Below are positions 3,462 through 39,924 of a stretch of DNA of 64,000 nt, piece after piece. The position numbers were made by a program, and so were the translations under genes. Below the pieces are notes generated by a model, which was given only the letters and a program-made list of their open reading frames with translations, did no database searches and was not told where the DNA came from. Within the stretch, counting starts at the first letter, position 1. Every line of letters starts with the position of its first letter. Origin of the DNA: Nitratireductor indicus C115 (GTDB taxonomy: Bacteria; Pseudomonadota; Alphaproteobacteria; Rhizobiales; Rhizobiaceae); contig NZ_AMSI01000002.1 in the NCBI RefSeq assembly GCF_000300515.1, forward strand, positions 186,001 to 250,000, in the 5' to 3' direction.

Positions 3462-3515
3462 CTTTCTGGAAAAGTTGCCGCACGCGTTTCAATGCAGCAA
3501 GCAAGAAGATGGAGA

Positions 3516-3541
3516 GCCGTGCGACCAAAAGGACGCACGGC
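3516..3541. terminator. hairpin between convergent kinase and cobT genes
   Basis: Inverted repeat with 8-bp arms gccgtgcg (3516-3523) and cgcacggc (3534-3541) around a 10-base loop in the 91-bp gap between two convergent genes. There is no T-run on either side, so intrinsic termination is only possible, not strong. Confidence 0.4.
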
Positions 3542-3552
3542 AGTAAGATATG

Positions 3553-4518: not shown

Positions 4519-4679
4519 GAAAGTCCATCCGATTGAAATCCTGCGACGGCATAACCGCCCCCGCCGCCTCATGCAATGGCCACCGTGACGCGCATGCCCG
4601 GCGCAACGCACTGTTTTCATGTGCAGCGATCAACGCCTCAGCCTTGCGCACGCCCTCCGAATGTCCCATGTGAAAGTGG

Positions 4680-4901
4680 ATGGCAGAAATCCGATCCCCT
4701 TGCATTCTGGTCTGTTCGCTCGATCCCGTGACGAGCTTCTGCGTCGGCTGCGGACGAACCGGCGCCGAGATTGCCGGATGGGTCGCCATGGCGCCTTCCG
4801 AACGGGATGCCGTCATGGAAAAGCTCCCCGCAAGGCTTCAACGGCTCGGCAATGCCGGGCATGGGGATCACCCGCGACGTCCAGCGACAAGGCGCGAGTG
4901 A
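4680..4901 (+). CDS. DUF1289 domain-containing small protein
   Basis: A 73-residue protein with the DUF1289 pattern: four cysteines in SPCILVCSLD and SFCVGCGRT (residues about 7-25), followed by EIAGWVAMAPSERDAVMEKLPARL. The two CxxxC/CxxC pairs suggest a bound metal or iron-sulfur site, but no function is established for the family that can be claimed here. The stop lies two bases before the ATG of the aspartic protease gene, so the two are probably one transcript. The C-terminal tail after RLGNAG is low-complexity. Confidence 0.8.
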   Translation: MAEIRSPCILVCSLDPVTSFCVGCGRTGAEIAGWVAMAPSERDAVMEKLPARLQRLGNAGHGDHPRRPATRRE

Positions 4902-4903
4902 TC

Positions 4904-5605
4904 ATGCGGCTTTTCTGGATATTGATGGCAATTCTCGGCGCGGGTCTCATCCTGCTCATCGCGAACAATGATGCCGGCTCCATTCTGGGGATCGAGAACA
5001 ATGTTTTTGCCGGAGCGCTTTATCTCTCCCTTTGGGGTGGCGTTCTGCTTCTCGGTGTCTTCGGCGGCGGCATCCGGCTTCGCGAAGCAGCCCGTTCGAT
5101 TGCCTTCTGGAGTTTTCTGCTTCTGGCGCTGGTTGCGGTCTATCAGTACCGTTACGAACTGCAGGACGTCGCCCACCGGGTATCAGCTGGCCTCGTCCCT
5201 GGAAGCCCCATCTCGCTTGGCAGCGAAAACGGCTCGGCACATGTCCTCCTCGAACGTGCTCCAGGCGGCCACTTCGAAGTCAGGGCGCAAATCGACGGAA
5301 AACCCGTGCGCATGCTGGTCGACACCGGCGCGAGCGGCATCGTTCTTACCTTCAGCGACACAGAAGCGATTGGCGTTAAAACGGACGGACTTGCCTTTCA
5401 CATTCCGGTTTCCACCGCCAACGGAAACGCGCTGGTTGCCCGCGCCCGCATAGACACGCTGGAGATTGGCGCCATCGTCCGGCGAGATTTGACCGTCTAT
5501 ATCGCCCAGCCCGGCCAGCTCGGACGCAGCCTTCTGGGCATGAGCTTCATCGACACGCTTTCCGGTTTCGACCTGCGCGGCGACCGCCTCATCCTGCGCG
5601 ACTGA
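4904..5605 (+). CDS. membrane-anchored retropepsin-like aspartic protease, TIGR02281 type
   Basis: A 233-residue protein starting MRLFWILMAILGAGLILLIA. Three hydrophobic segments (about 2-20, 33-50 and 58-78) precede a single-lobe aspartic protease domain of clan AA (about 105-233). The catalytic Asp lies in MLVDTGASGIVLTFSD, and GRSLLGMSFIDTL provides the second conserved turn. A homodimer is expected because only one Asp motif is present. The start was placed at 4904, two bases after the DUF1289 stop, because upstream in-frame sequence overlaps that gene and is not protein-like. Biological substrates of the bacterial family are poorly known. Confidence 0.82.
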   Translation: MRLFWILMAILGAGLILLIANNDAGSILGIENNVFAGALYLSLWGGVLLLGVFGGGIRLREAARSIAFWSFLLLALVAVYQYRYELQDVAHRVSAGLVPGSPISLGSENGSAHVLLERAPGGHFEVRAQIDGKPVRMLVDTGASGIVLTFSDTEAIGVKTDGLAFHIPVSTANGNALVARARIDTLEIGAIVRRDLTVYIAQPGQLGRSLLGMSFIDTLSGFDLRGDRLILRD

Positions 5606-5610
5606 AACGC

Positions 5611-5643
5611 AAAATGCCCCGATCCGGTGGATCGGGGCATTTG
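5611..5643. terminator. bidirectional intrinsic terminator
   Basis: A 14-bp perfect stem (aaatgccccgatcc / ggatcggggcattt) with a GGT loop sits between two convergent genes. It has a T/A-rich base on both sides, so it can serve the protease gene on + and the giant repeat protein on -. Confidence 0.85.
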
Positions 5644-5664
5644 CACATGCACATTCACGAGGCG

Positions 5665-8600
5665 TTATTTATAGACCGGTCCCGACAGCGTACTTGCGGG
5701 TGCCCCTGTCTCTGCCCTCGTCTCAATTTCCAGGCGATAGCGACCGCCGACGTTGCGCCATTCGTCGGCTATGAGCTTGCGCACGGCCTTCAGCCTGCGG
5801 GCCACGAGCTTGCTGCGGCTGTCGGCACCGTAATAGCTCAGCCGCAGAACCGATGGCTCCTGGTCGAGCACCGTGATGAGCCGGCTCACACGCTCCCGCC
5901 ATTCCGGCCTGAGCTCGATCATGCCGCGATCGAACGCCTCGTCCGTCAGGTCCAGCCGCACCACACGCCCGATCGAGGCGCCGAACGAGAACTCCGACGC
6001 CTTGCCCGCCGTCAGGCGAACAACCCGCGGGTTCTCCGTCGTTATGCGATACCCGGAAGGAAGAGACCGCGGATCGAGCTTCAGGATGTAGTTCGTGCCG
6101 ATCCGCTGGTCGGGAAGCTCAGCACAGGCCACATGGAAGCGCCCATGCTGGTCGGAGGTCACGAGCAGGCCCTTCACCGTCGCAACCCGCACGCCGGGAA
6201 GTCCCGGCTCGCCCGCATCCTGGTAGCCGTTGCGGTTCTTGTCGTCGAACACCTTGCCCAGGATGTCGCCGCAGTCGAACACCGCCTCGACAACCACCTC
6301 CACCACTGCTCTTGCAATGAACGAGATCACATTGCCCGTCAGATCCTCCACCCACGCCCGGTTCACATATTCGTCCGGCTTGGCCGCTGCCGTCACCGCC
6401 AGCGTAAGGCCGATCTCCACCGCCTGTTCGTTCTGCAGGGTCACATTCTCGAACACCAGACGCCGGCCCTCCACCTTCGGTGTCGCGGGATTGCCGTCAA
6501 GCGTTGCCGTCCCCGACACATAGGCAAACCCCACCGGCGTCTGGTCCACGATGTTCGTCACCATCGAGCCGGAAAGCCCCAGCGGCTTCACCCGGATCGT
6601 GTACGGCACCCGCCCGCCGCGCCGCACTTCCGACAAGGGCGTCATCTTGGTGATCGCGAAGCCGGGCAGGTTCACAATGGCCATCGCCTCGGGTGCCTGG
6701 GCCTTGCGGCCCTTCAGGCCCGTCCCTTCCGCTGTCGCCTTGTTGACGATCCCATCCTCCACATTCTGTGCATTGGCCACATCCGCATCGCTCAGCGTAT
6801 AGCTGGCCGTGAAGTCCTGGCTCTGGCCGGGATCGAGATTGGCGCTGGCCGGCGAGAAGGCCGACAATGCACCGGTGGCCGGTTTGCCGTTGAAGGTCGG
6901 GCCCGGATCCGCCGGTTTCACATCGCTCGCCGGCACATTGCCGTCATTCGTCACGGTGAAGGTATAGAGGATCGTGTCCCCGGCCTCCGCGAAGCGGCCG
7001 GGAGCCCCCTGGTAGGCCCCGCTCTTCTCAAGAGCCAGAGACAGCTTCTGCGGCAGAAGCGTCACCGTCGGGTTGTCGGACTGCCCTTCGCCTCCCACAG
7101 TCCCGCTGCTGTCAGGGTCGTTGGAGATGTCGCTCACCGGGTCCCCGTTCGGCGCGCTCCCCGTAACAAGGGCCGTCGCGTCGATACGCCCGTCCTCGAT
7201 GTCGGCCGCCGTCAGCGGGTGGCTCGCCGTGAACGTTCCCGTGTCTTCGGCACCGGGCAAAAGGCTGGAAATAGGCCCCCCTGAAACAGGAACGGCAGCC
7301 AATGGAGTGATATCGGCCGGCACCACGATATCCACGGAGCTTACATCCAGGCTCGCAATCGACAAGCCTGACAGCGTCACATTGCCCGTATTGATGATGC
7401 GGAATGCGTAGGTAACGGTCTCGCCCGGTTCCGGGAACCCATCGCCATCCAAGTCGACAAGCGTATCCACCAGTTCGAGCTTAACCGAAGGATTGGCCTC
7501 GAAGGTAATGACCGTCGTATCGCCGGGCGCCCCGTCCGGCGGACGCGAAACGGCCGTCACATCCTCGCCCTTGGGGTCCTTTGCTACAGCGCTCGCCGTG
7601 TTCTCGAACGAGCCGCTGTCCACATCGGCCTGCTGGATCGTGTAGCTACCGGTTGCGCTCGTATCGCTATCCCCCGGTGCAAGCGGGCCGGCGATCGGGC
7701 TCCCCGAAACCGTCGCCTTCGAATCCGTCACAACGATGTCCGTCAGGCTCACATTGCCCGTGTTCGTAACCGTGAACGCATAGGACAACGTCTCCCCCGC
7801 ATCCGCAAACCCATTTCCGTTCGCATCGTTCAGCGTTACATCCTTGACGAGGTCGAACTCACCCTTGCCCTCGACCGGGAAGTCCGTCGATTCACCGGGA
7901 TTGCCGCCCGGCGGACGCGAGGTCTGCGTGATGTCGTTACCCTTCGGATCCTTCGCAGTCGCAGTCGCTGTGTTCTCCACATTGCCGCTGTCGATATCAG
8001 CCTGCGTCACCGTATAGACGCCCGTTACCGATGTGGCATCCACTGCCCCCGGCGCAAGCGTCGGGATCGGGCTGCCGGAGACAGTGGCTTTCGAATCCGT
8101 CACCACCACATCCGTCAATGTCGTATTACCAGTGTTCTCCACCGTGAAGACGTAGTTGATCGTCTCATTCACGTCGACGCGGCCATTGCCATTGGCATCG
8201 TCATGCGTCGCTTCCTTGACGAAGTCGTAATCGGAGACCGTTTCAACTTCGGGAAATCCGGAAGGGTCGCCAGGATTGCCGCCCGGAGGAGCGGACTGCT
8301 TCGAGACATCGTTGCCATCTGGATCCTTGGCTGTGGCCGAGGCCACATTCTCGATCTTGCCGGCATCGATGTCGGCCTGCGTGATCGTGTAGACGCCCGT
8401 CACCGATGTGTTGTCCACCGTCCCCGGCGCAAGCGTCGGGATCGGGCTGCCGGAGACCGTCGCCCGGTCATCCGTCACTGTCACATCCGTCAGTGTGGTG
8501 TTGCCGGTGTTCGTAACGGTGAAGGTGTAGTTGATGATCTCGCCCGCATCCATCAACCCATTGCCGTTGGCATCATCATGCGCGGCATCCTTGACGAAAT

Positions 8601-11600
8601 CGTAGTCGGACACCTTCTGCACCCCACCAGGTGGCCTGGTCGGATCGCCTTCCGTGCCGTCCGGCGGACGCGATTGTCTGGAAACATCATCGCCATTCGG
8701 GTCCTTGGCCGTCGCCGAGGCGACATTGTCGAGATCGCCCGCATCGATATCGGCCTGGGTGACCGTGTAAGTGCCGGTCACGCTCGTGGTATCGACGGCT
8801 CCGGGCGCCAACGGTCCGGCGAGCGGGCTGCCCGAGACTGTCGCCCGCGAATCCGTGACCACCACATCGGTCAGGGACACATTGCCCGTGTTCGTGACCG
8901 TGAACGTATAGTTCATGACCTCGCCGGCATCGATCAGCCCGTTGCCATTAGCATCGTCATGCGCTGCTTCCTTGACGAAGTCATAGCTGGCATCCATCGG
9001 GGTCTCCAGGCTCGTCGAATCGCCTTCCGCGCCATCCCTCGGACGCGACTGCTTCGAGATGTCGTTGCCCTGCGGATCCTTCGCCGTCGCCGAGGCGACA
9101 TTGTCCACGCTGCCCGAGGCCAGGTCCGCCTCGGTGACCACATAGGTGCCCGTCACCGAGGTGTCGTCTACCGCGCCCGCGGCCAATGTCGGGATGGGGC
9201 TGCCCGATACGGTCGCCTTGGAATCCGTCACCGTCACATCGGTCAGCGTCACGTTGCCGGTATTCTCGACCGTGAACGTATAATTGATCACCTCCCCGGC
9301 ATCCGCCTGCCCATTGCCATTGGCATCATCAAGAACCCCTTCCTTGATGAAGTCATAGGAGGGATTGCGCACGAGCGTCACGACGGTGACGTCATCGGGT
9401 TCTCCATCGCCGTTCGCATCGACATCGGTCGAGTCGGATGGGTCGTCGGACAAATCCGTCACAGCCGTACCGTCTGAAGCCGTGCCTTGCGCGCTGGCCT
9501 GGTTCTCAAATCGCCCGGCATCGATATCCTCGGCAGCCAGAACATGTACGGCAGAGAAAGCACTCGAATTGCTGTCCCCCGGAGCAAGCGAAATCGCTCC
9601 GCCGGAAATCGGAACATTTGGATCGGTCAGGGTGATGTTGTCGATGTTGAGGCCGCCGGTATTGGCGACGGTGAAGGCGTAGTCGATGCTTTCGCCCACA
9701 TCTGGCTGTCCGTTACCGTTGGCGTCGTTCAGCGTTGCGGTTTTCTGAAGTTGGAGACTTGCGGCTATCGCCAGAACGGCGCAGCTCGATGGCGGCGGGT
9801 TCGCTGAACAATCCGGCGGTGTCGTACCCGTCTGATAGGCCCCGTTCGAAATCCTGGCTCCGGGAGGCAGTGGATCGACGACCGTGACAATCGTCGTCAG
9901 CACGAGGGTACCCGGCGTCGATCCGACCTGCGCTGGAACTGTCAAGTTCGACCAGGTGACGGTGCCACCGGGCGATCCCCCCGCATGGCTTCCGCCATTG
10001 TCGGAACTCTGATGGGTGGTGTTCGGATCGAGATTATCGGTTACACCGTAATTCGTAGCATCGGTACTTCCATTATTCGTCAAGGTAATCGTGTAGGTCA
10101 GCTGTTCGCCGGGCTCGGCAATTCCATTGCCATTGGCATCCGTTACCGTCTTGTTCGGCTCAGCCACCGCTGCCGGAGTAGGCTGAAAATCAAAACTGCT
10201 TGTGACGCTGTCGTTCGAGGTGTCATAGTCGACATTGGCAGGATTGCCGTCTCCATCGGGAACGGAGCGTCCCAAAGCCACGCTGAAATCGTGCGTTCCG
10301 CCCGCGGTCGGATAATCCACGGCCACCGGAATGTCGAAGCTTTTCGTGCCACCGGAAGCGCCGGGACTTGCCGCAGCGGCAAGCGGTGACGGATCGAGCG
10401 CGCAGGTGACGAGCTGTCCGCTCACCGCGCAATCGGCCGGCAATGTGCCGTCGACCGACCAACCCGCGGGAAGCGTGGCGACCAGGGTATAACCGTCACT
10501 TCCGGTTGCTCCAGGTCCGTAATTCGTCGCCGTCATGGTGAGAGTCTGCGGCTCGGCATAGCCCGTGAAAGTCGCCGGCGGCGTCATGGTCACGGCGATA
10601 TCCGGCCGGCCGGCAACCGTCAACGTACAGGTGTTGTCCTGACGTAGTGCCAATGTCTGGCCCTGCGCGCAGGACCCCAGTTCCACATAGGTGTTCGTGT
10701 CAATTCCGCTTGGGCGCTGCCCTGCAGTGGCACCGTAGTCAGCACCATTGTGGACATAGAGTTCATACATTTCCTGAAATTCGGCAGCATCGTTGGCGGA
10801 AACGCTCGCATAAGGCAATTTTCCGACGCCCTCGGTCATGGCCGTGCTGTTTCGGGTCAGATCCACGAGCCAGCCTGTGCCACCGATCGATTGGTCCCAA
10901 GCGAAATTGTCGAAGGTCAAATGGGCGGAATGGCGCGCCTGGGAGAAATTAGCGCATCGGGCCTTGATGCCGTCATACCCCACGCCGCCCAGCTGGATGG
11001 CATAGCCATAGGTGACGTCCTGTGAGCCGCAGAAGGGGCCGCGGGAGGTGTGCGTGCCATTGTTTTCAACATTGCCGGCGTCACGTCGAACCACCGGCAC
11101 TGACGAATCGAGTTGAATCCAGTCTCCGGCTGCAAGCATGACGGGACGACATGCGATGCCCACCTGGCTCGCCCAGCGGTCACCGCCCGCATTAGATATC
11201 CGATCCCGTCCATAAAAATAGAAGGCGATTTCGCCAGCCGGGCATGTCGCGGTTTGCGGGGTGCCTGAATTTGCATATGCGCGGCCACTGACAGCGGATG
11301 GTACGCCCAGCGTTACCGCCGTGCCATCTGTGGTAATAGACGCGCATGATAGATCGACTCTACCGGTCATGCCAATCGCGGTCGTGGTTCCGCTGACGAT
11401 GTCCGAATGGGTAACGCCGACGAGGAACTGGCCGGCGGGGCATGCTGTGGAACCCGTTCCGTTTTTATCGATGCCGATCAAACCGCTGATGGCTTCACCT
11501 TGAATTCCAATTCCCTGCTGTGCGAACGCTGGCCCCGTCTCAATCATTGCCGCAGCAATGCCGCATACCATCAGCACCAACATTGAGGTCACGTACCGCC

Positions 11601-11718
11601 GGAAAGGACCCACTTCCCTGAGAGAAGTTGAAACAGACTCCAGATCACGCGTACCTGCCAACAATTTGCAACGATGAGTTTCTGAATTCGATGGTAATAT
11701 CTGAGGCAGGTAGAGCAT
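5665..11718 (-). CDS. giant secreted DUF11/DUF7507 repeat protein with SdrD-B-like and OmpA-like C-terminus
   Basis: A 2017-residue protein, probably a surface stalk or adhesin. The start is preceded by GAGGA five bases before ATG. Residues 1-45 are an unusual extension before a hydrophobic segment (about 46-65) ending GPAFAQQ, a likely signal-peptide cleavage site. A unique head region runs to about 370. About ten tandem immunoglobulin-like DUF11/DUF7507 modules follow, most with the signature DANGNGxxDAGExxxYTFTVTNTGNxxLTDV. Near the C-terminus are an SdrD-B-like domain (FDCGDILGKVFDDKNRNGYQ) and about 130 residues resembling a degenerate OmpA-like region (DLTDEAFDRGMIELRPEW, then LRLSYYGADSRSKLVARRL). 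There is no LPXTG, so cell-envelope retention through the C-terminus is inferred. A paralogue in pieces lies upstream. Confidence 0.8.
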   Translation of the reverse strand: MLYLPQILPSNSETHRCKLLAGTRDLESVSTSLREVGPFRRYVTSMLVLMVCGIAAAMIETGPAFAQQGIGIQGEAISGLIGIDKNGTGSTACPAGQFLVGVTHSDIVSGTTTAIGMTGRVDLSCASITTDGTAVTLGVPSAVSGRAYANSGTPQTATCPAGEIAFYFYGRDRISNAGGDRWASQVGIACRPVMLAAGDWIQLDSSVPVVRRDAGNVENNGTHTSRGPFCGSQDVTYGYAIQLGGVGYDGIKARCANFSQARHSAHLTFDNFAWDQSIGGTGWLVDLTRNSTAMTEGVGKLPYASVSANDAAEFQEMYELYVHNGADYGATAGQRPSGIDTNTYVELGSCAQGQTLALRQDNTCTLTVAGRPDIAVTMTPPATFTGYAEPQTLTMTATNYGPGATGSDGYTLVATLPAGWSVDGTLPADCAVSGQLVTCALDPSPLAAAASPGASGGTKSFDIPVAVDYPTAGGTHDFSVALGRSVPDGDGNPANVDYDTSNDSVTSSFDFQPTPAAVAEPNKTVTDANGNGIAEPGEQLTYTITLTNNGSTDATNYGVTDNLDPNTTHQSSDNGGSHAGGSPGGTVTWSNLTVPAQVGSTPGTLVLTTIVTVVDPLPPGARISNGAYQTGTTPPDCSANPPPSSCAVLAIAASLQLQKTATLNDANGNGQPDVGESIDYAFTVANTGGLNIDNITLTDPNVPISGGAISLAPGDSNSSAFSAVHVLAAEDIDAGRFENQASAQGTASDGTAVTDLSDDPSDSTDVDANGDGEPDDVTVVTLVRNPSYDFIKEGVLDDANGNGQADAGEVINYTFTVENTGNVTLTDVTVTDSKATVSGSPIPTLAAGAVDDTSVTGTYVVTEADLASGSVDNVASATAKDPQGNDISKQSRPRDGAEGDSTSLETPMDASYDFVKEAAHDDANGNGLIDAGEVMNYTFTVTNTGNVSLTDVVVTDSRATVSGSPLAGPLAPGAVDTTSVTGTYTVTQADIDAGDLDNVASATAKDPNGDDVSRQSRPPDGTEGDPTRPPGGVQKVSDYDFVKDAAHDDANGNGLMDAGEIINYTFTVTNTGNTTLTDVTVTDDRATVSGSPIPTLAPGTVDNTSVTGVYTITQADIDAGKIENVASATAKDPDGNDVSKQSAPPGGNPGDPSGFPEVETVSDYDFVKEATHDDANGNGRVDVNETINYVFTVENTGNTTLTDVVVTDSKATVSGSPIPTLAPGAVDATSVTGVYTVTQADIDSGNVENTATATAKDPKGNDITQTSRPPGGNPGESTDFPVEGKGEFDLVKDVTLNDANGNGFADAGETLSYAFTVTNTGNVSLTDIVVTDSKATVSGSPIAGPLAPGDSDTSATGSYTIQQADVDSGSFENTASAVAKDPKGEDVTAVSRPPDGAPGDTTVITFEANPSVKLELVDTLVDLDGDGFPEPGETVTYAFRIINTGNVTLSGLSIASLDVSSVDIVVPADITPLAAVPVSGGPISSLLPGAEDTGTFTASHPLTAADIEDGRIDATALVTGSAPNGDPVSDISNDPDSSGTVGGEGQSDNPTVTLLPQKLSLALEKSGAYQGAPGRFAEAGDTILYTFTVTNDGNVPASDVKPADPGPTFNGKPATGALSAFSPASANLDPGQSQDFTASYTLSDADVANAQNVEDGIVNKATAEGTGLKGRKAQAPEAMAIVNLPGFAITKMTPLSEVRRGGRVPYTIRVKPLGLSGSMVTNIVDQTPVGFAYVSGTATLDGNPATPKVEGRRLVFENVTLQNEQAVEIGLTLAVTAAAKPDEYVNRAWVEDLTGNVISFIARAVVEVVVEAVFDCGDILGKVFDDKNRNGYQDAGEPGLPGVRVATVKGLLVTSDQHGRFHVACAELPDQRIGTNYILKLDPRSLPSGYRITTENPRVVRLTAGKASEFSFGASIGRVVRLDLTDEAFDRGMIELRPEWRERVSRLITVLDQEPSVLRLSYYGADSRSKLVARRLKAVRKLIADEWRNVGGRYRLEIETRAETGAPASTLSGPVYK

Positions 11719-11979
11719 AATATCCTCGTTCGAGTAATCGATTCTAATTGCCCCCGCAGAAGCGACGACACATCAGCAAACACTGGGATAGATAAAGCCC
11801 TCTCCGCCAGTTTCCGGGAGGTATTGTTACTGTTGGGAGTGACACGAAAGGCCAGCTCCCAAACTCTGGAAGAAACGCACCCACAGGCTGGTTTCTATCT
11901 GCTTCTTGTTTGAACACTGGTTTCGACCCTCGCCTCGATATCGAGGCGATAGCAACCGCCGGCACTGGCCCGTTCCTAG
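11719..11979. other. spacer with promoter region of the giant gene and a paralogue tail
   Basis: This 261-bp gap holds the upstream region of the giant gene (its GAGGA ribosome-binding site is next to 11718) and, at its right end, a fragment coding for the C-terminal tail of another family member (annotated separately at 11895-11977). No confident -35/-10 pair was seen. Confidence 0.5.
11895..11977 (-). pseudogene. C-terminal tail remnant of a third giant-repeat paralogue
   Basis: Read on the minus strand, this encodes ERASAGGCYRLDIEARVETS followed by VQTRSR and a stop. It aligns with the final residues of the two long family members (SIGGRYRLDIETRSETGSPA and NVGGRYRLEIETRAETGAPA). The fragment starts two bases from the left end of the IS3 element, so the rest of the gene was lost or displaced by the insertion. 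The match covers about 26 residues with the invariant YRLDIE core, and the strand and position are right for a C-terminus. Confidence 0.72.
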
Positions 11980-12031
11980 TGCTCTGATCCCGAACTTTGG
12001 AGCTCTGAAGGCTGGAGTTTCCCGGCTTTCT

Positions 12032-12887
12032 TCACGGTGACGGGGTGGCTTCGCCACCGGGATTTTGTAATGCGATCGGGACGTTGTATCCGATCGCCGA
12101 GTGAGGCCGAACCTCGTTGTAGTATCTACGCCAATCCTCCAACTTTTCGCGGGCATCCGCAAGACTCAGGAACCAGTGTGCGTTCAAACACTCGGCCCGC
12201 AGCTTGCTGTTGAAGACTTCGATGAAGCCGTTGTCCGTAGGCTTGCCCGGCCGTGAGAAGTCGAGGTGACGTCGTTCGCATAGGCCCACAGATCGAGGTC
12301 CCGGGAGATGAACTCGCTGCCATTATCGACCTTGATCGTCTTGGGATAGCCGATACGGCCACATACTCGCTCGAGCGTCTGGACGACATTCTCGCCGCGA
12401 TAGGAGAAGCGCGGATCGACCGCTGGGCAATAGCGGGAATGCGTGTCGACAATGGTCAGGACACGGAGCTTCTTGCTGGTCGCGAGCTGGTCATGGACAA
12501 AATCCATGGCCCACACATCGTTCGGTCCGATGACCTCCTGGCGATCCTCCCTGAGCTTGGCCTTGACCCGTCGCTTGGGGTACTTGTTCCTGAGCTGTAG
12601 TCCCAACTCACTGTAAATCCTACGGGTCTTCTTCATGTTGATCGTCCATCCCTCACGACGCAACAGCACGTGGACACGCCGGTAGCCGTAGCGAACCTGC
12701 GTCTCGCAAATCTCCTTGATCCTTCGTTCGAGCGAGGCCTGACCGGTGCGACAGGACTTGTAGTGGTAGGTGGAAGGTATCGAACTTCAATGCCTTGCAG
12801 GCCCGTCTGATCGATATCCCCCAGTCCACCAGCATCCCGTCGACCAGCTTGCGCTTCCGGGCAGGCCTCAGAGCTTTCGGCGAATGA
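12032..12887 (-). pseudogene. IS3 transposase OrfB, two frameshifts
   Basis: DDE integrase-type transposase. Pieces of one protein are spread over frames: a start region reading SPKALRPARKRKLVDG and MLVDWGISIRRACKALKFDT; a catalytic core with VWAMDFVHDQ (first Asp) and IKVDNGSEFISRDL (second Asp); and a C-terminal piece with PTDNGFIEVFNSKLRAECL (Glu) and WRRYYNEVRPHSAIGYN. One apparent extra base near 12778 breaks the frame after KFDT, where STYHYKSC is expected. One missing base near 12270 breaks it after LWAYANDV. Programmed frameshifting in IS3 occurs between orfA and orfB, so these internal shifts are inactivating mutations or sequence errors. Confidence 0.82.
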
Positions 12888-13155
12888 CGTCCTGCAGCAT
12901 CTCGCGATCAACCGTCAGGTCAGCGACGGTCTTCTTCAGCCGACGCATCTCATCTGGCAACAGTCCAGCATACTTCCTCTTCCAGTTGAAATAGGTCGCC
13001 TGGCTGATCCCGGCCTTGCGGCAGATCTCTGCCACGGACACGCCGTCATCGCCCTGCTTCAGAATGAACGCCTTCTGCGCGTCCGAAAACTTCGATGCCT
13101 TATCGCTCTCCGTTCCATTCCAGCCAGAGAAACCTAAGCGGAAAAATCTAACCAA
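12868..13155 (-). CDS. IS3 transposase OrfA (helix-turn-helix subunit)
   Basis: A 95-residue OrfA; the recognisable part begins about residue 14 at GTESDKASKFSDAQKAF. The HTH is GVSVAEICRKAGISQATYFNWKRKYAGL, followed by a short basic coiled-coil and the family ending REMLQDVIRRKL. Compared with IS407-group relatives, the stretch between EMRRLK and KTVADL looks about ten residues short, as if one RLK-to-RLK leucine-zipper segment was deleted. That is a judgement from memory of the family. The first dozen residues of the long ORF are probably not native. Confidence 0.75.
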   Translation of the reverse strand: MVRFFRLGFSGWNGTESDKASKFSDAQKAFILKQGDDGVSVAEICRKAGISQATYFNWKRKYAGLLPDEMRRLKKTVADLTVDREMLQDVIRRKL

Positions 13156-13176
13156 AAGCGATCCAGTTTGCGCGGA

Positions 13177-13314
13177 TCAGAGCACACGAGAAAGACAGCG
13201 GATCGAAACCAAGGTTGAGAAAGCTTTTCTCTGAACCTGCGCTTCAGCCGTTCCGCCTGACGCAAGGATCATCAGCGCGACCGGAAATGGTATCATCATG
13301 CGGGGCTGTCTCAT
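13177..13314 (-). pseudogene. signal-peptide stub of a disrupted secreted protein (third paralogue N-terminus)
   Basis: A 45-codon frame on the minus strand begins MRQPRMMIPFPVALMILA and continues SGGTAEAQVQRKAF. This is a basic N-terminus, a hydrophobic core and an A-E-A cleavage site. Its stop (13177-13179) lies inside the IS terminal repeat. A GAGGAG stretch lies upstream but at a spacing that better fits another ATG seven bases earlier, in a different frame. Together with the C-terminal tail on the other side of the IS, it is best read as the start of a third giant-repeat gene cut by the IS. The link between stub and tail is inferred from strand and position; the 20 mature residues do not visibly match the paralogues. 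Confidence 0.55.
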
Positions 13315-13567
13315 TTTCCATCAGGCGCTCCTCACTGCATTGATTGCATTTCGAGTGTCTACCCCAATAGGCATGTTGTGAATCCCATCGCATATCAGGC
13401 GGTGGTTAAGACCCTTATCGGGCAGAGTGCTGGTACTGAATGTGGAAGAACAGATGTCCCGCGCAGGCGAAACAGTACAATGGCAGTCCCACACCGTCAG
13501 TTATCGGCATGTATTATTACCGTTAGCAGCCGGCACAAACCTGCCGGCTGCTTTTCTCCGGACGCGA
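13185..13567. other. 383-bp spacer right of the IS
   Basis: Holds most of the signal-peptide stub and, from 13315 to 13567, sequence with no convincing gene. The only structure seen there is a hairpin near 13528-13555. It is the expected position for the promoter of the disrupted third gene, but no clear promoter motif was found. Confidence 0.5.
13528..13555 (+). terminator. GC-rich hairpin with short T-run
   Basis: Arms gcagccggca and tgccggctgc flank a six-base loop and are followed by tttt on the plus strand. The gene that needs a terminator here (ending at 13568) is on the minus strand, where no U-run follows, so the functional direction is uncertain. Confidence 0.45.
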
Positions 13568-16500
13568 TCACTTGTAGCCCGGCGTCTTGCCTGCTCTCGC
13601 TGGGCTTCCGGTCTCGGACCTGGTCTCGATGTCGAGCCTGTAGCGGCCACCAATGCTCAGCCACTCTTCCGAGATCGCCTTGCTTACGGTCCTCAGCCTG
13701 CGCGCGGCGAGCCGGCTGCGGCCATCGGCGCCGTAATAGCTCAGCCGCAGGACCGATGGCTCCTGGTCGAGCACCGCGATGAGCTGGTTCAGGCCGGAAA
13801 GCCATTCCGGCCGAAGTTCAACCATGCCGCGTTCGAACGCGTCGTCCGTCAGGTCCAGCCGCACCACACGCCCGATCGAGGCGCCGAACGAGAACTCCGA
13901 CACCTTGCCCGCCGTCAGGCGAACAACCCGCGGGTTCTCCGTCGTGATGCGATACCCCGAAGGCAGCGACCGTGGATCGAGCTTGAGGATGTAGTTCGTG
14001 CCGATCCGCTGGTCGGGAAGCTCAGCACAGGCCACATGGAAGCGCCCATGCTGGTCCGAGGTCACCAGCAGGCCTTTCACAGCCGCCACCCGCACGCCTG
14101 CCAGGCCAGGCTCGCCCGCATCCTGATAGCCATTGCGGTTCCTGTCGTCGAACACCTTGCCAAGAATGTCGCCACAGTCGAACACCGCCTCGATCACGAC
14201 CTCGACCATAGCGGTGGCAACAGACGAGAGCACGGTTCCCGCATCGTTCTCCAGCCAGGCCCGGTTGATATATTCGCCAGGCTTGGCACTGGCCGTTACC
14301 GTCAGAACGAGCCCGATCTCGACAGCCTCCTCGGGCTGAAGCGACACGTTCTCGAACGCAAGCCGCCGACCGTCGATCCTTGCCGTCACCGGCGCTCCGC
14401 GCAGCGTCGCGCTGCCGGGAACAAAGCTGAAGCCCTGTGGAATCTGGTCGAGCACCGTGACCTTCGTCTCTTCCGGAATACCCAGCGAGCGGACCCGGAT
14501 CACATAGGGTACCCGCCCGCCACGCCGCACCTCCGACAGCGGCGTCATCTTGGAGATGACGAAGCCCGGCAGGTTCAGCACCGCCGACGCCTCGGACGAG
14601 CCCGCCGCGCCCTTCGGTCCCTGACCTTGCGCGCGCGCCGTGTTCTTCACCGCATCCTCGATATTCCTGGCATTGGCGATGTCCGCATCGCTCAAGACAT
14701 AGGTCGCAGTGAAGGTCTGGCGCTCCCCAGGGGCAAGGCTCGCCTCAGCCGGCATATAGGCCGAGAGACGGCCCGTCGCCGCTTTCCCGCCGAAGTTCGG
14801 CCCGTCATCCTCGGGCACCACGCCGCTCAGCGAGACATTGCCTTCGTTCACGATCTCGAAGGTATAGAGGATCGTGTCCCCCGCCTCCAGAACCTCGTTG
14901 GGGGACCACTGGAACGCCCCGGACTTCTCGATCCCCAGAAGCGCCTTCTGCTCGAGTGGCGTCCGCGTCGGGTCATCAGGCTTTCCGTCGCCGTCACTGT
15001 CCTCATTGCTCGTATCGCTCGGATCGTCCGACAGGACGGAGACTTCCTCGCCGCCGGACCCTTTGCCCACCGCCCTCGCCGTCCCGGCGATCCCCCCCGC
15101 ATCGATGTCGGCCTGGGTCAGGACATAGCTTGCCGTGAACGTACCTGTATCCTCGCCCCCCGGCGCAAGCGAAGCGAGCGGGCCGCCCGAGACCGTGACC
15201 GTGCGCGCGCCTGAGGCGCCGCCATCCTCCAGCACCGAGAGCGAGGCGATCGAAACATCGCTCAGCGTGGCATTGCCCACATTCCTGACGATGAAACGGT
15301 AGCTGACGCTCTCGCCGGCATCCGCAATGCCATTGCCGTTGCCGTCCACGAGAACCGCCGTCAGTTCCAGAACGATATCCGCCTTGCGTTCGAATTCGAC
15401 AATGGTCGGCCCCGTGCCCTCGGGAGGCCGCGAGGGCCATTCCAGATCCTCGCCGCCGGGCCCCTTTGCCTTCAGGAGCGCCGTGTTCTCGACCTTGCCC
15501 GCATCCACATCCGCCTGCGTGATGCTGTAGACCGCGGTGAAAGTGGTGCTGTCGCTGTTGCCCGGTTCGAGGCTGGCAAGCGGCCCGCCCGAAACCGTGA
15601 CCTTGGCATCGCTGACCGTGAGGTCCGTCAGCGTCACATTGCCCGTGTTCCGTGCCGTAAAGCTGTAGCTGATCGTTTCTCCGGCATCGGCCAGGCCATT
15701 GCCGTTCGCGTCGTTCAGCATGGCGCTCTTGATGAACTCCGCCTCCGGCTTGCGTTCGATGGTCACCGACACATCGCCGGAGGAGGCGCTGAGCGACGTT
15801 CCATCCGGCCCGCTCCCCGACACGCTCGCCTCGTTCAGCACCACGCCGGCATCGATATCCGCCTGGGTCAAGGGATAGGAGGCGCTGAAGGTCGAACTGT
15901 CGCTGGCGCCCGGCGCGAGCGTGGCAAGCGGCCCGCCCGAAACCGAAACGAGCGGATCGCTGACCGTGAGGTTCGACAAGGTCACATTGCCCGTGTTCGT
16001 CACCACGCATTCTCAACGGTGAACGCGTAGTCGATATGATCGCCTATATCGGCAACGCCATTGCCATTCGTATCCCTGTAGGTGGCAGTCTTGGTCAGCG
16101 AGACTTTCTCGCTGGCCGGAAGCATGATCGTGGTCTCGCCTTCGTCGTGAATGTCGTTGCCCGCAGGCGAGCGCGCAAGCGCTGTTGCCGTGTTCTCGAG
16201 TCGGCCCGCATCGATATCCGCCTGGGTCAGCGGATAGGAGGCGCTGAAGGTCGAACTGTCGCTATCGTTTGGCGCAAGCGTGGCAAGCGGCCCGCCCGAA
16301 ACCGGCGCAAACGGGTCGCTGACCGTGATGTTCGACAGCGTCACATTGCCCGTGTTCGTCACCACGAACGAATAAGAGATCGTCTCGCCCGCATCCGCAA
16401 CGCCATTGCCATTCGCGTCGACAAGGTCCCCCGACTTCTGGAGGCTGATCTTCTCAATGCCGTTGCCGGTCACCATCGTCGTCGCATCATCGCTGACATC

Positions 16501-18333
16501 GACGCCGGTCGGCCCCTTCCCGTTCACCTGCGCGGTGTTCTCCACCTTGCCCGCATTCACATCCTCCTGGGTCAGCGGATAGGTCGCCGTCAGGCTGCTG
16601 GTGTCGGTAGCGCCGGGGGCAAGGCTGGCGATCTGCCCCGTGACGACCGTGGCGGTCGGATCCGTCAGCACGATATTGCTGATCGCCACGTTACCCATAT
16701 TGGTCAGCGTGAAGGTATATTCGATGGTCTCCCCAGGATCGAACGCATCGTTGCCGTTCGCGTCGATGTGGACGCCATTCTTCTCGAGATGAAGCCGATG
16801 CACCGCTTCAATCGTCAGCGTGTCATTCGCGCCGTCCGAAACGATTACCCCCCCAGGACTCGTCCCCGACACCGAAGCGGTGTTCTGAACCTCTCCCGCA
16901 TCGATATCGGCCTGCGTCAACACACGGCTGCCCGAGATTGTCGTCGCATCGCTGGCATCCGGCGCAAGGCTCGCTATCGGATTGCCCACAAGGGTGGCGC
17001 CGGGATCCGTCACCGTGATGTTCGACAGCGCCACATTGCCCGTGTTCGTGATGGTAAACGTATAGTTTATCGTGTCCCCGGCATCCGTGATGCCATTGCT
17101 GTTCGTATCCGCCACAACACCACGCTTCGACAGCGAAATCTTGGGATCGCGCGGAATGGTAACAACGGTCGGTGCATCCTGGGCACCTGCACTTGCACGG
17201 GAATAGGCGCTCACCTCTCCAACGGTGGGCGAGGTTCCCACGCCGACAGCCTGATTGCTGATGCCGCCTGCATCCACATCGGCTTGGGTCAGATTATATG
17301 TGGCCGTGAATGTCGCCGTTTCGTCCGGCACCAACGTGCCCTGGGGTGAAGCACCGCTATTGGAAACGAATGTCGGCCCCGATGTGAGCGAGAGGGCTGT
17401 CCCATCCGAACGCTCAAGAAAATCTTCGCTGATCGAGACGTCGGTCAGCGTTTCTGTGCCGCTATTCTGCACCGTCATGGTGAAGGTGGCGGTGTCTCCG
17501 GCTTTATTCCCGCCCAGGGAAGCCGTTTTGACCACCTGAATCAAAGACACGCCCAGCGCAAAATTCGACAGACAAGCAGAACCGGATTCCCACCAGGCTT
17601 TTACCGTAAGATCATGAGCCGACGCTGTCGCCGTAAATGTAAAAACCTTGTGGTTCCAACTGTCACTTGTAATGCGTATATTCTCTTCCGGTCGACTGTC
17701 AATATTCATAGTCAATCCAGCACACGCTCTAGAAAAATAGGAGCCTGCCCCACCTCTCGAAATCGAGTAGAAAGGGATATTATAGGTTCTTCCGGGTGTG
17801 AGACCTGTAATCGTCGTCTTGATAGCTTCATAATCTGTGGGAGAGGCTCCATACATGCTTGTAAATGTGGGATCGCCTGTTGGAAGGGGAGGTAACGGAC
17901 CATCCACAAATGGGTAGGAACCCCATCCCCACCTTTCCAGGGTAGAGCAATCCGGGGTATTCTTCACGATTTGCCAGCCTGGCGGAGTAACATTTGGGCC
18001 GAACGTACACGGTGAGGTTGGCGCTACATATTGCGCTCGAACCTCTTGTGTCTGCCCAAACAAAATCATCAAGAAGACAAGAAAAGAAGCCAGCGCCACG
18101 GCGAAGACGCGCGCAACTTCCGAAGTCGCCACGCGCTCGAAGGACATGAATTTTTGCCTGGAAGGTTTGCCCCTCCGCGACTGACCAGAGACTCGGGGGG
18201 GAAACGCAAATTGCGCCCAACAAGCAGCTCTGCAGGCCGTTAAATATGCGGACGAAGTGCCTTTCCAGGTCTCGAGCGAACAGAAGCTCGCGCAATAGGT
18301 GTCAGCCTTAAAAAAGGATGCAAAAAATCTCAT
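13568..18333 (-). pseudogene. second giant DUF11/DUF7507 repeat protein, frameshifted at a module boundary
   Basis: Two abutting frames together make a relative of the 2017-residue protein. The upstream part (18333-16000, 777 residues) starts after a TGAGGATCCA ribosome-binding site, has a 62-residue extension before a hydrophobic signal ending FGQTQEVRAQ, a head domain (about 100-260) unlike that of the intact paralogue, and modules with DxNxNG loops. It ends ...DYAFTVENAW and stop. The downstream part (16006-13568, 812 residues) continues VVTNTGNVTLSNLTVSDPL and ends with the same SdrD-B-like/OmpA-like C-terminus as the paralogue. The frames differ by one base and overlap by seven. The break falls exactly where modules read VENTGN or VTNTGN, which suggests out-of-phase recombination between repeats, or an assembly error. 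If the break is real, the first product would be secreted but lack the C-terminal domain. An alternative start at 18147 would give a more ordinary signal peptide but lacks a good ribosome-binding site. Confidence 0.78.
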
Positions 18334-18565
18334 TGGATCCTCATAACAAAATAAAATAAAAAATACTCTTTATATTAATATTAAATTACACTATAGTAAA
18401 ATAATGATAATCTTAGAATGTATTTTAATTATTTAAAAATAAGAAAAATTTCACCCTCAAAAATTCTAAAGGATGAGCTCGTTCGAACCCTGACCAAAAA
18501 TGCATCGTCTGAAGTGGATGCTGGACCAAGCCTAGGCATTATTGGGGTTATTCTCGAATTAGCAT

Positions 18566-18611
18566 CGCGTCAGGAATGATCTCACCTGATAGCGAGATCA
18601 TTCCTGACGCG
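18566..18611. repeat. perfect 18-bp inverted repeat
   Basis: Arms cgcgtcaggaatgatctc (18566-18583) and gagatcattcctgacgcg (18594-18611) pair perfectly around a 10-base loop. No T-run follows on either strand. It could be a palindromic intergenic repeat or a protein-binding site. It lies immediately downstream, on the minus strand, of a degenerate coding fragment. Confidence 0.75.
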
Positions 18612-18612
18612 C

Positions 18613-18800
18613 TCTTGGTCGCCAACAGTCCTGGCAGGGTGATCGCCGACCGCGCCGCAGGGCAGACCGCCAGCAGCCCCTTTCAAGCCCGTGCCGCCAG
18701 CGGCCATGGTGTCGGATAGACCGTGTTCAACATTCCGGGCATTTCCGATCTCCTGCACGCTCAGGCCGCAATCCGCCACGGACCGGTCAAACTGACGATG
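18613..18800 (-). pseudogene. fourth, degenerate fragment of the giant-repeat family
   Basis: On the minus strand the fragment reads LSVQEIGNARNVEHGLSDTM and then AAGGTGLKGAAGG. This matches the penultimate module of both long paralogues (LSDADIANARNIEDAVKNTA...GQGPKGAAGSS and LSDADVANAQNVEDGIVNKA...GTGLKG). Upstream stops and lack of other modules show it is a remnant. It shows that the island once carried at least one more copy or a longer array. Confidence 0.7.
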
Positions 18801-18887: not shown

Positions 18888-21374
18888 TCAAATCCTGATG
18901 CTCCGCAGCCGCAGCGCATTCCCGATCACCGACACTGAAGACAGACTCATGGCCGCAGCCGCGATCATCGGCGACAGGAGAACACCGAAAACCGGATAGA
19001 GAATACCCGCCGCTATGGGAACGCCGAGCGAGTTGTAGACGAAGGCCAGAAACAGGTTCTGCTTGATGTTGGAAAGCGTGGCGTGCGCCAGTCTGCGCGC
19101 CCGCACAATCCCGCCGAGATCGCCTTTCACGAGCGTAATGCCGGCGCTTTGCATGGCCACATCAGCCCCCGTCCCCATCGCTATTCCGACATCGGCGGCA
19201 GCAAGTGCAGGCGCGTCATTCACACCATCGCCGGCCATGGCAACCTTGGCGCCCTTCGCGCGCAACTCCTCCACGAGCGCCTTCTTGTCTTCAGGCAGAA
19301 CATCAGCTCTCACCGCATCGATACCAAGCTTGCGGGCAACGGCCTCAGCGGTGCGGCGGTTATCGCCCGTTGCCATGATGATCTTCAAGCCGTTCTCGTG
19401 CAGGGCGCGGATGGCCGAGGCGGCATTTTCCTTGACCGGATCCGCGACTGCCATAATGCCCGACAAAACACCGTCGAACACCACGAACATAGCCGTCTTG
19501 CCCTCACTCTGGAGAGCTTCGGCCTCGCTTGCGAAACCGGAAGTATCAATACCGGCATCCTTCATCATGGCCGCATTGCCAAGTTTCACCCTTGTGCCCG
19601 AAACCGTGCCCGAGACCCCCTTGCCCGTCACCGCGTCAAAATCCGAGACATCGGCGAGCGTCAGTCCCTCGGCCTCCGCCCCCTCGACAATCGCTTCTGC
19701 AAGGGGGTGCTCCGAGCCGCGTTCAAGGCTTGCCGCAAGCGTCAGCAGCCGTTCGCGCGTCACCTCCTCGCCGACAACCACATCGGAAAGGCGCGGACGG
19801 CCTTCCGTAAGCGTGCCGGTCTTGTCCACGATCAGCGTGTCGACACCGGCAAAGCGCTCCAGCGCCTCGGCATCGCGGATAAGCACACCCGCCTGCGCAC
19901 CGCGGCCGGTCGCCGTCATGATCGACATGGGCGTGGCAAGGCCGAGCGCACACGGACAGGCAATGATCAGCACGGAAACTGCCGAAACGATTGCATAGAC
20001 CATGCTCGGTTGTGGGCCGAAGATGGACCAGACCACGAACGCTATGATCGCAACCAGCACCACCGCGGGCACGAACCAGCCCGACACGCGATCAGCCATG
20101 CCCTGGATCGGCGCTCGGGAGCGCTGCGCGCTCGCCACCATCTCCACGATCCGCGAAAGCATGGTCTCGCTTCCCACGCGCTCCGCCAGCATCACGAGCG
20201 TCCCGTTGCGATTGAGCGTGCCGCCGGTCACCGGATCGCCATTCCCCTTTTCGACCGGAACCGGTTCGCCGGTAATCATCGATTCATCGACGGATGAGCG
20301 CCCTTCCTCGACCGTCCCGTCGACGGGAACGGATTCGCCCGGACGAATCCGCAACCGGTCTCCGACCCGCACTTCGTCCAGCGAAACGTCCTTCTCCGAG
20401 CCATCGGAGGCAATACGCCGGGCCGTTTTCGGCGATAGATCAAGCAGCGCCCGAATGGCTGAACCCGTACGTTCGCGCGCCTTGAGCTCGAGAACCTGCC
20501 CCAGGAAAACGAGCGCGACGATCACCGCAGCCGCTTCGAAATAAACGGGCACCGTACCCGCATGGGTATGGAAGGAGGCAGGAAAAGCCGCTGGGAAAAG
20601 CGTCGCTGCGACGGAATAGAGATATGCCGCCCCGACACCGATGGCGATCAGCGTCCACATATTGGGGCTGCGGTTGACGATGGATTGCCAGCCGCGTTTG
20701 AAAAAAGGCCAGGCCGCCCACAACACCACCGGACTTGCCAAAAGGAACTCGATCCAGACGGCCAGTTTCTCGCCAATCCAGTCACGCACAGGCAGTCCCA
20801 CCATGGGCGACATCGCGATGATGAAGACCGGCACGGCAAGCAGGGTGCTGACCCAGAACCGGCGTGTGAAATCGACAAGCTCGGGATTTGGCCCTTCCTC
20901 TCCCGTGGGAACCCCCATAGGCTCGAGCGCCATGCCGCATTTCGGACAATCGCCAGGCTCGTCCCGAACGATTTCCGGATGCATCGGACACGTATATTTG
21001 GTGCCCTTCGGCACCGGTGCAGGCTTCGGCCTGTCATCCAGATAGGCTTGCGGGTTGGAAGAGAACTTGTCGGCGCAACCCGAAGAGCAGAAATAAAATC
21101 GCTCGCCCTCATGCTTGTGCATGTGGCGCGCCGTCGCGCGCTCCACCATCATTCCGCAGACCGGATCCTTCGCCGTCAGGTAATTTTCTGGATGGGCCAG
21201 AAACTTGTCGCGGCATGAGGCGCTGCAAAAATGATATCGCCTGCCTTCATGATCCACTGTCGGTTTGTCGGCGTTCGGATCGACAGTCATGCCGCAAACC
21301 GGATCTCGCACGATTTTCTCTCCCTGAGCCTGTCCATGAGAGGAATCATGATGGTGCTGATTATGGTTTTCCAT
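18888..21374 (-). CDS. copA: copper-translocating P1B-type ATPase with two YHS domains
   Basis: An 828-residue heavy-metal P-type ATPase that exports Cu(I) from the cytoplasm. A His-rich start ([14 protein letters not shown]) is followed by two YHS metal-binding domains ([10 protein letters not shown] at about 22 and [10 protein letters not shown] at about 70) and a heavy-metal-binding zinc-ribbon-like segment [22 protein letters not shown] (about 127-149). The membrane core has the transport motif [11 protein letters not shown]. The soluble domain has [11 protein letters not shown] (phosphorylated Asp), an SEHPLA nucleotide-binding motif and [10 protein letters not shown]. No classical GMxCxxC HMA domain was seen; the YHS pair takes that place. 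The promoter carries a MerR-family operator. No adjacent regulator or chaperone gene is present. Confidence 0.93.
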
Positions 21375-21428
21375 GTCTTTCGGTCCTCGCAGGCCGTTCC
21401 GGAACTCAAATCTATCGGCGACGCCAAC

Positions 21429-21459
21429 GATATAGGCCTTCCAGTAGCTGGAAGGTCAA
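21429..21459 (-). promoter_or_regulatory. CueR/HmrR-type copper-responsive promoter of copA
   Basis: On the minus strand, TTGACC (-35, 21454-21459) and TATATC (-10, 21429-21434) are separated by exactly 19 bp. This over-long spacer is the hallmark of MerR-family promoters. The spacer contains a perfect palindrome ccttccag-N3-ctggaagg (21437-21455), closely matching CueR/HmrR operators. It lies 55-85 bp before the copA start. The MerR-type regulator itself is not in the window. Confidence 0.82.
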
Positions 21460-21535
21460 GGCGCGTTCTCCCCAGAATGTCTGCAGCTTTCATGGCCGGG
21501 AGGCATCGCAATCCGGTTTCAAGGAGGGAACAGGC

Positions 21536-21563
21536 TTGACTTTCCGGGGGTTCCCTTTATGTG
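21536..21563 (+). promoter_or_regulatory. sigma-70-like promoter of rpmG
   Basis: TTGACT at 21536-21541 and TATGTG at 21558-21563 with a 16-bp spacer, about 80 bp upstream of the rpmG start. The -35 is near consensus and the -10 is weaker. Identification is by motif only. Confidence 0.5.
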
Positions 21564-21641
21564 TCCGCCAGACTTTTCGCGCAGGCTTAAGGATTCCTTC
21601 GCTCGCGCAGCCACCAAAATCATCAGGAACGGACGACAGAC

Positions 21642-21809: not shown

Positions 21810-21832
21810 GATCTTTCCCCCCGCGCTTACCG

Positions 21833-39917: not shown

Positions 39918-39924
39918 CATCGAC

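Follow-up and report, generated by a model that had tools for sequence, protein, structure and literature searches.

Giant stalk proteins with a constant C-terminal tail in Nitratireductor indicus and a candidate outer-membrane barrel partner

The 64,000-nucleotide stretch of Nitratireductor indicus C115 DNA analysed here (the window; positions 186001-250000 of contig C2 in a host genome, G000, of 4.99 Mb and 73 contigs) contains an island of related giant genes, whose products are rods of DUF11 and DUF7507 modules ending in a common C-terminal tail. To our knowledge, how giant Gram-negative rods with neither a type I signal nor a classical autotransporter domain reach the outer membrane, and stay on it, is an open question, and it is the one that this island raises. 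Our candidate answer is a tail that stays constant and one particular barrel gene, tied to one another by gene coupling, co-occurrence and natural fusions; the island would then probably supply interchangeable passengers to a split display system that resembles an autotransporter and has its barrel in trans.

Three open reading frames (ORFs) of the island, all on the minus strand, were given the working names P1 (5665-11718), P2 (13568-16006) and P3 (16000-18333); relatives of the host are labelled G001 and onward, and fetched loci bear L-numbers. P1 is a single ORF of 2017 codons whose product has a class-B head, DUF11 and eight DUF7507 modules, an SdrD_B domain and an OmpA-like end. P3 (777 residues), with a class-A head and the first modules, and P2 (812 residues), with the rest of the modules and the tail, are one gene in two frames, and the intact giant and the broken giant (13568-18333) of an earlier, sequence-only reading of this DNA were both borne out. 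Both DUF7507 and DUF11 were found by hmmscan in P1, P2 and P3, the DUF7507 matches in the window lying above the curated cut-off, and all 17 DUF7507 matches of the host genome fall inside the island. P1 and P2 align over 828 residues, up to the C-terminus, with 60% identity, and SdrD_B scores 33.5 bits in P2, above the cut-off of 29.7, and 22.3 bits in P1, below it. The heads of P1 and P3 fall into separate similarity clusters. The P1 head, including its N-terminal signal region (10162-11718, minus strand; signal peptide by eye), is 50% and 48% identical to two class-B heads of G007, and by eye a hydrophobic stretch ending in AxA stands ahead of the head in both P1 and P3.

The modules of the stalk point to a kind already described. 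A global survey of intramolecular isopeptide bonds renamed DUF11 and DUF7507 as CLIPPER and CLIPPER_2, and its accessible text gives Lys72-Asp112-Asn152 as an example triad for DUF7507 (PMC12617251). Of 204 modules, drawn from the window together with 29 fetched loci (28 from the genus and one from G015), 154 have a residue at each of the profile columns 2, 42 and 83, and 151 of these show Lys, Asp and Asn there, the 50 gapped modules being left uncounted; for the window the figure was 12 of 12 scorable modules, with 4 of 16 gapped. By profile and triad, then, the stalk is of the published CLIPPER/CLIPPER_2 isopeptide kind, and its modules are predicted to contain the bond; the fibrillar adhesin is likewise a known kind of protein. 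Stalk length is eight or nine modules in P1, and by a purpose-built profile it ranges in relatives from 0 (L077, L107, L114, L121 and L122) to 25.

The constant tail, an SdrD_B domain followed by a degenerate OmpA-like domain, occupies 5665-6366 (minus strand) in P1, and of 86 long tail matches (those of fewer than 190 residues were not counted) 85 reach to no more than 10 residues from the end of the ORF. In the OmpA family an aspartate and an arginine line the peptidoglycan pocket. The tail position aligned with that arginine is invariant and the aspartate position is not conserved (hhalign alignment, and by eye), and the order predicted for the last 90 residues is beta-alpha-beta-alpha-beta. 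The OmpA family profile PF00691 matched none of 75 tails at E 0.1, hhalign of the tail with OmpA domains was weak (E 0.0028, probability 11%), and a Croceibacterium relative carries a true PF00691 domain (E 5e-12). In fold comparison the neighbours were taken up by the SdrD_B part, and in a sequence search against solved structures SdrD alone fell below E 0.4. The common SdrD-B/OmpA-like block claimed in the sequence-only reading was thus upheld in its shared C-terminus and SdrD_B domain, and the OmpA-like label is partly supported, as a remote similarity. A phage or viral origin of the tail was considered and rejected: 15 pattern matches in viral contigs yielded no confirmed relative, and there were none in phage records.

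Missing altogether from that reading was a partner, an ORF of about 1250 residues with a long N-terminal part, which appears to encode an outer-membrane beta-barrel and which we call the barrel. Among 82 tail genes with 900 nt of downstream sequence, 52 of the 63 from outside Nitratireductor have the barrel gene as their immediate downstream neighbour, as do 4 of the 19 from within it (an inverted duplicate pair at L073 being counted twice), and the ATG of the barrel gene overlaps the stop codon of the giant by 4 nt in 44 of the 52 and in all four of the Nitratireductor cases. Eight of the loci lacking a barrel at that place belong to Chelativorans. Tails were also found in 22 plasmid records, and among those listed all 20 have a barrel match at most 1.3 kb downstream on the same strand.

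Two of these loci are peculiar in themselves. At L073 (Pseudorhizobium tarimense, NODE_18) the tail end and barrel occur twice, at about 1889-6342 and 7155-11608, inverted and facing each other, which is either a real duplication or an artefact of the assembly. The L104 record (JAHREI010000001.1), under the title Bacillus subtilis SK6B4, carries a Hyphomicrobiales giant-barrel pair with a barrel start like that of Pseudochrobactrum L105, and the record is probably mislabelled or a mixed assembly.

In some distant bacteria the two partners are a single protein. One 2079-residue ORF (L174, from G060) contains modules, tail and barrel, with both profiles matched nearly end to end; a 4548-residue ORF (L172) contains SdrD_B and barrel positions 368-1252; and SdrD_B and barrel parts lie within one ORF at L168, L170, L171 and L173. 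In Vibrio campbellii (L169) giant and barrel are overlapping neighbours. The order of the fusions, passenger, tail and barrel, is that of a classical autotransporter. The L168 plasmid (Acinetobacter haemolyticus p4, CP085288.1) also bears DUF11 genes and fragments in a row, together with an OmpA family gene, and its ORF with SdrD_B and barrel parts is itself a DUF11 protein.

The two genes also occur in the same genomes. Of 61 genomes, 17 have both family and barrel, 2 the family only, 1 the barrel only and 41 neither (p 5e-12), and in the 50 outside the genus the numbers are 6, 2, 1 and 41 (Fisher p 1.2e-5). A class-wide draw of 289 genomes, including the host, gave 10 with both, 7 with the tail only, 1 with the barrel only and 271 with neither (p 2e-13), or 7, 1, 4 and 277 when a tail match had to cover most of the profile to be counted; all of these p-values are indicative, the genomes not being independent. 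The host has an open barrel gene of 1290 residues on contig C16 (L155, 4769-8641), a different contig from that of the island, and the 14 kb retrieved around this gene contain neither a tail match nor a module match. A barrel match is present in each of the 10 remaining genomes of the genus, with an open frame of 1306-1370 residues in nine, and the surroundings of the stand-alone barrel in nine of them gave no tail or module match either. Because the barrel is present in all 11 genomes of the genus, a pairing in trans is suggested for Nitratireductor. The sizes of the ORFs around the host barrel resemble those in other genomes of the genus.

The gene coupling and the fusions argue that tail and barrel work together, and with a fusion order equal to that of classical autotransporters they are the grounds for the split display that we propose. 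The strongest alternative is an ordinary OmpA-anchored fibrillar adhesin, with the tail as its peptidoglycan anchor and a separate barrel that is merely co-transcribed. The accessible text of PMC12617251 does describe a Gram-negative CLIPPER adhesin whose anchoring domain is OmpA-like, and the Croceibacterium domain, the order of elements predicted for the final 90 residues and the invariant arginine position would all suit such an anchor. Set against these are the absence of PF00691 matches in the 75 tails, the variable aspartate position and the weak hhalign score, and an anchor of this kind leaves the coupling, co-occurrence and fusion with the barrel unexplained; we regard it as unlikely.

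As to the barrel itself, two of them scanned at E 0.01 matched no Pfam or NCBIfam family, and a search against solved structures by sequence gave nothing below E 0.02. At E 0.1 the weak matches in 41 barrels were to families of outer-membrane barrels, OMP_b-brl in 7, DUF481 in 10, DUF7840 in 19 and YadA_anchor in 4 (best E 3.7e-5), and apart from those four no known type V translocator family (TpsB, autotransporter) was listed. The C-terminal residue is Phe in 33 of the 41, and by a rough script all 41 have more alternating stretches than shuffled sequence. A structural model has 32 strands of at least 8 residues after residue 530, and the 50 structural neighbours listed by VIA-align are all membrane beta-barrels. 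Among these neighbours are the TonB-dependent transporters PiuA, BtuB, Cir and BauA, and in 7 of the 25 plasmid records that contain a barrel match it is annotated as a TonB-dependent receptor, as would be expected if the barrel were a receptor of that type and the giant a surface capture protein of an uptake system. However, no TonB plug or receptor Pfam family was listed for the 41 barrels at E 0.1, and a partner that is a rod of stalk domains would be unlike known capture lipoproteins, so that we hold uptake to be very unlikely. The partner thus appears, on the model and these matches, to be an outer-membrane beta-barrel without a clear Pfam family.

If the barrel can be supplied from elsewhere, what becomes of the giants where they stand? 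Family matches were present in 10 of 10 other genomes of the genus and in 8 of 50 others. On the left the window island is bordered by an aspartyl-protease-fold gene (AspProt, 4619-5605, plus strand), which adjoins the giants in nine of the ten, and by a CobT-like phosphoribosyltransferase gene (3553-4620, minus strand) found there in the same nine; on the right lies a response regulator-GGDEF gene (22268-23641, minus strand), the border in 6 of 10, several of the remaining genomes stopping at contig edges. Because the left flank (HK, CobT and AspProt, or part of it at a locus edge) is conserved in nine genomes and the GGDEF side in the tenth (G005), where the locus ends at the contig edge, the island is a chromosomal slot. 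A plasmid or mobile-element reading of the island was rejected on the conserved flanks; the giant-barrel pair does occur on plasmids elsewhere.

The contents of the slot can be written in GGDEF-to-AspProt order, with a letter for the head class and a number for the modules found by the purpose-built profile. The slot then reads A(broken)-D(remnant)-B9 in the window (8 modules by Pfam in the last), C8-A4 in G001 and G009, C8-A3 in G002 (where the ORF in the C position begins within the stalk and was classed by place and tail), A7-C7 in G006 and A(broken)-C19 in G004. In G005 it is C8 followed by the contig end, in G008 a broken gene adjoining the ATPase, and in G003 and G010 a tail only, at a contig edge. 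In G007 an unheaded contig-edge ORF is followed by B9, and a different contig ends in A11-C7-B, perhaps a further part of this array. This genome is N. aquimarinus; the genes of classes A, C and B close one contig and two further tail genes open the other (contigs C10, end, and C3, start; L045/L046), and the assembly may have divided one array of four or five genes. Where the slot is readable, heads, order and module counts vary between genomes, the counts from 3 to 11 in class A and from 7 to 19 in class C, and several genomes of the genus have extra copies of the family outside it.

The heads are variously related. Heads of classes A and D occur in Nitratireductor, N. luteus and Chelativorans alike, with identities of 33-55%, and the B head of the window is 34-40% identical to six B-type heads found at other loci. 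The A and B heads of the window match no Pfam family above cut-off. Among ten heads scanned, four of class C contain DUF6923, two B-type heads (L031 and L056) end in SpaA_4, the single class-D head gave Calx-beta under the cut-off only, and one other head gave CBM_4_9, also under it.

Trees of the tails, with about 90 preceding residues, suggest that heads and tails have not always travelled together. We built one of 46 rows and one of 26, the latter omitting the headless tails (G008, G010 and one of G007), the broken A and D genes of G004, the copies coupled to a barrel in cis and the six B-type heads at other loci. The A- and B-headed tails of the window are joined in both (support 97 in the 46-row tree, 99/96 in the 26-row tree), and the 26-row tree likewise joins the B and C tails of N. 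aquimarinus (98/95), the A and D tails of N. luteus (100/99) and the A, C and D tails of Chelativorans (100/99). Constraining a head class to one clade was rejected both for class A (p-AU 2.4e-54) and for the two class-B tails (p-AU 2.3e-15), with classes that had been set beforehand, although the 46-row tree was already known when the test was made, and with the long branches G6_A and G7_A present. The tails of the six B-type heads fall elsewhere in the 46-row tree, and with those rows included class B would be even less of a clade. On the tail tree the head class changes 7 times where three changes would do.

The tails of the two window giants also look locally homogenized. Over codons 1808-1927 the DNA of P1 and P2 is 88-98% identical, against 41-74% before and 59-80% after, and the same codon is used at 38 of 44 fourfold sites within this tract and at 69 of 161 before it, so that it looks like a conversion tract over the SdrD_B domain. 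The same stretch is also strongly conserved as protein, the best conserved in the tails.

It could be argued that heads and tails simply co-diverged, and that the grouping of tails reflects convergence or the shortness of the tails. G001, G002 and G009 are all C-A, with 8, 8 and 8 and 4, 3 and 4 modules, which makes them stable orthologues and tells against free exchange; the tails of G001, G002, G005 and G009 group by class; class labels are clustered on the tail tree (the 7 changes compare with a shuffled mean of 13.7, and 0 of 200 shufflings were as low); and the tract of high identity is the best conserved stretch of protein. Against this stand the clade tests for both classes, the identity and fourfold-codon values of the window tract, and the A and D heads held in common with N. 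luteus and Chelativorans, whose tails group by genome, and strict co-divergence seems to us very improbable. Because tails of differently headed genes group by genome in several lineages, we read heads and tails as reassorted in those lineages and stable in others. The array proposed in the sequence-only reading, exchanging heads and stalk lengths while old copies decay, is accordingly supported by the tail trees, module counts and remnants; close strains with stable orthologues of the same head and module number, which that reading had named as telling against it, are in part found in G001, G002 and G009.

From the genes and their domains, the residue triads, the constancy of the tail, the incongruence of heads and tails, the coupling, co-occurrence and fusions, and the open barrel gene, we infer docking, display, an export route, adhesion and a ligand for the head, in the following scheme. 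A passenger would consist of a signal region, an exchangeable head, a DUF11/DUF7507 (CLIPPER) isopeptide stalk and the constant C-terminal tail, and the tail would dock on the large outer-membrane beta-barrel, supplied by the next gene in most of the sampled Hyphomicrobiales outside Nitratireductor, by fusion to the tail in some bacteria and from a separate locus in the host. The barrel would hold the tail at the outer membrane and display the rod, perhaps also exporting it, and the displayed head would contact surfaces or cells; an adhesin role for the giants is likely. A single barrel in trans could serve several passengers, and the genes of the slot would therefore be free to be swapped, shortened or lost, with recombination keeping the tail usable. 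We judge the split display in this general form to be probable. More tentatively, and with distinctly less confidence, we suggest that it represents a new subtype of display at the outer membrane, one whose barrel belongs to no named Pfam family, in which the tail hands isopeptide-locked rods to a dedicated barrel and which in Nitratireductor works in trans, with several passengers and a recombining repertoire of heads.

Several observations weigh against the display that we favour. Of 564 relatives the best 80 were kept, giving 75 loci, a sample that leans to close tails, and 15 of 19 Nitratireductor tail genes have no adjoining barrel. The family occurs without the barrel in G011 and G035 and the barrel without the family in G026, and of the seven tail-only genomes in the class-wide draw six are partial-profile matches and one (G172, 81% complete) has a full tail. 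The barrel model is moderate (pLDDT 68, pTM 0.57), and its structural neighbours align at 3.8-14.5 Å rmsd, mostly high. Several slots look decayed (the A and D genes of the window, G008 and the A gene of G004). Breakage of this kind, seen also in the stand-alone barrel copy of G005, which is in pieces with another copy at a contig edge, would suit obsolete giants, with P1 the survivor of a decaying family without present function, a view that we consider the least probable of all because P1 is open over 2017 codons with the triad in seven of its eight scored modules, each of the 10 other genomes examined in the genus has kept the family, mostly in long open frames, and the barrel of G000 is open.

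The state of the broken gene deserves closer description. Its break lies in a tract at 15841-16020 (minus strand) that is 70-93% identical to a module 359 bp away, and the similarity drops to 23% exactly where the frame is lost; in a separate comparison the module pair around the break is 89% identical over 163 bp. The break, near 16.0 kb, is best read as a misjoined module boundary, and an assembly error there is possible. A plain frameshift from a sequencing error is less likely, since the loss of frame sits at the edge of a duplicated module.

Remnants were sought by tblastn of 49 family ORFs against three gaps, upstream extensions of known ORFs being set aside; the best reversed-sequence control gave E 0.086, and a chance-like match on the opposite strand inside the insertion sequence gave E 0.018. 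The final codons of a third gene's tail lie at 11901-11975 (minus strand; best E 5.0e-5), beyond an insertion sequence at 11985-13190 (minus strand, ends by eye) that is present as a single full copy in the assembly. It is of the IS3 family, with a helix-turn-helix OrfA (12868-13155, HTH_Tnp_1, PF01527) and an OrfB (12184-12786, rve, PF00665, and HTH_21, PF13276) with the DDE integrase core, both on the minus strand. A head stub at 13181-13305 (minus strand) is not significant by E-value alone (0.006-0.017 over 13287-13181). It reads ...AEAQVQR in one frame, which shifts after QVQR, and SFLNLGFDP in the next, matching the motif Q.QR.F.N.GFE with D in place of the final E, and the motif occurs in 9 of 8060 ORFs, of which eight are class-D family ORFs (two being the same genes fetched twice) and one is a short ORF adjoining another such gene; because of this near-restriction we assign the stub to class D. 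The stub and tail claimed around the insertion sequence were accordingly recovered, the tail by E-value and the stub by its motif, and by sequence comparison the island carries heads of classes B, A and D, three where the sequence-only reading had seen two unrelated ones. A decayed fragment on the right, a last module and the stretch behind it in two frames, is indeed a family remnant (E 8.9e-6, 3.7e-5 and 1.2e-4), at 18551-18779 (minus strand) and not at 18613-18800 as first given; both it and the tail remnant have E-values below those of the reversed control and the chance-like match.

To the right of the fragment, the interval 18888-24052 contains a heavy-metal P-type ATPase gene with YHS domains (18888-21374, minus strand), which forms the right border in the window and in G008 (L047), the GGDEF response regulator gene and a short ORF, at 23681-24052, which is conserved at 97-98% identity in five further loci of the genus and is similar to the receiver portion of that GGDEF gene. 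Outside the island, AT skew makes strong excursions at 38001-40000 and 43001-45000 of the window, down to -0.29 and up to +0.29.

How does this arrangement compare with systems already known? Staphylococcal SdrD B domains form repeats and are sortase-anchored. In the tail described here, by contrast with those domains (PDB 10ps, 8vdk and 4jdz), a single one stands beside an OmpA-like end. The Gram-negative CLIPPER fibrillar adhesin B9T28_05395 of Acinetobacter silvestris, as presented in the accessible text of PMC12617251, is alike in its head, its tandem isopeptide-type modules and its OmpA-like C-terminal end, whereas the window tail adds SdrD_B, its OmpA-like domain is degenerate, no Pfam family exceeds the cut-off in the A or B head, and a dedicated barrel of the outer membrane appears to go with the tail, whether in cis, in trans or by fusion. 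The CshA_NR2-type fibrillar adhesins of Proteobacteria (PMC10952558, accessible text) are alike in head shuffling, DUF11 stalks and OmpA-like anchors, although CshA_NR2 was not among the families listed for the ten heads at E 0.1. The giant-barrel pair is not described in the accessible parts of PMC12617251, PMC10952558, PMC6304850 and PMC8286594, a scope that excludes most subscription literature; in those parts the term outer membrane is absent from PMC12617251, OmpA and operon are absent from PMC8286594, and PMC6304850 concerns other DUF numbers. Within that literature the link between a constant SdrD_B/OmpA-like tail and a barrel of about 1250 residues, drawn here from genomic data, would be new. 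The pair is present in environmental bacteria, several of them cultured, and offers a natural system for studying the swapping of surface heads with the dock kept.

In type V secretion, an N-terminal passenger is combined with a C-terminal or separate outer-membrane beta-barrel, as in autotransporters and two-partner secretion. The giants differ in that the barrel has about 1250 residues and a long N-terminal part, with no type V Pfam family beyond YadA_anchor in 4 of 41, and in that the passenger would be recognised, if at all, through its C-terminus. The likeness would lie in a partnership of passenger and barrel, which linkage, co-occurrence and fusion suggest here.

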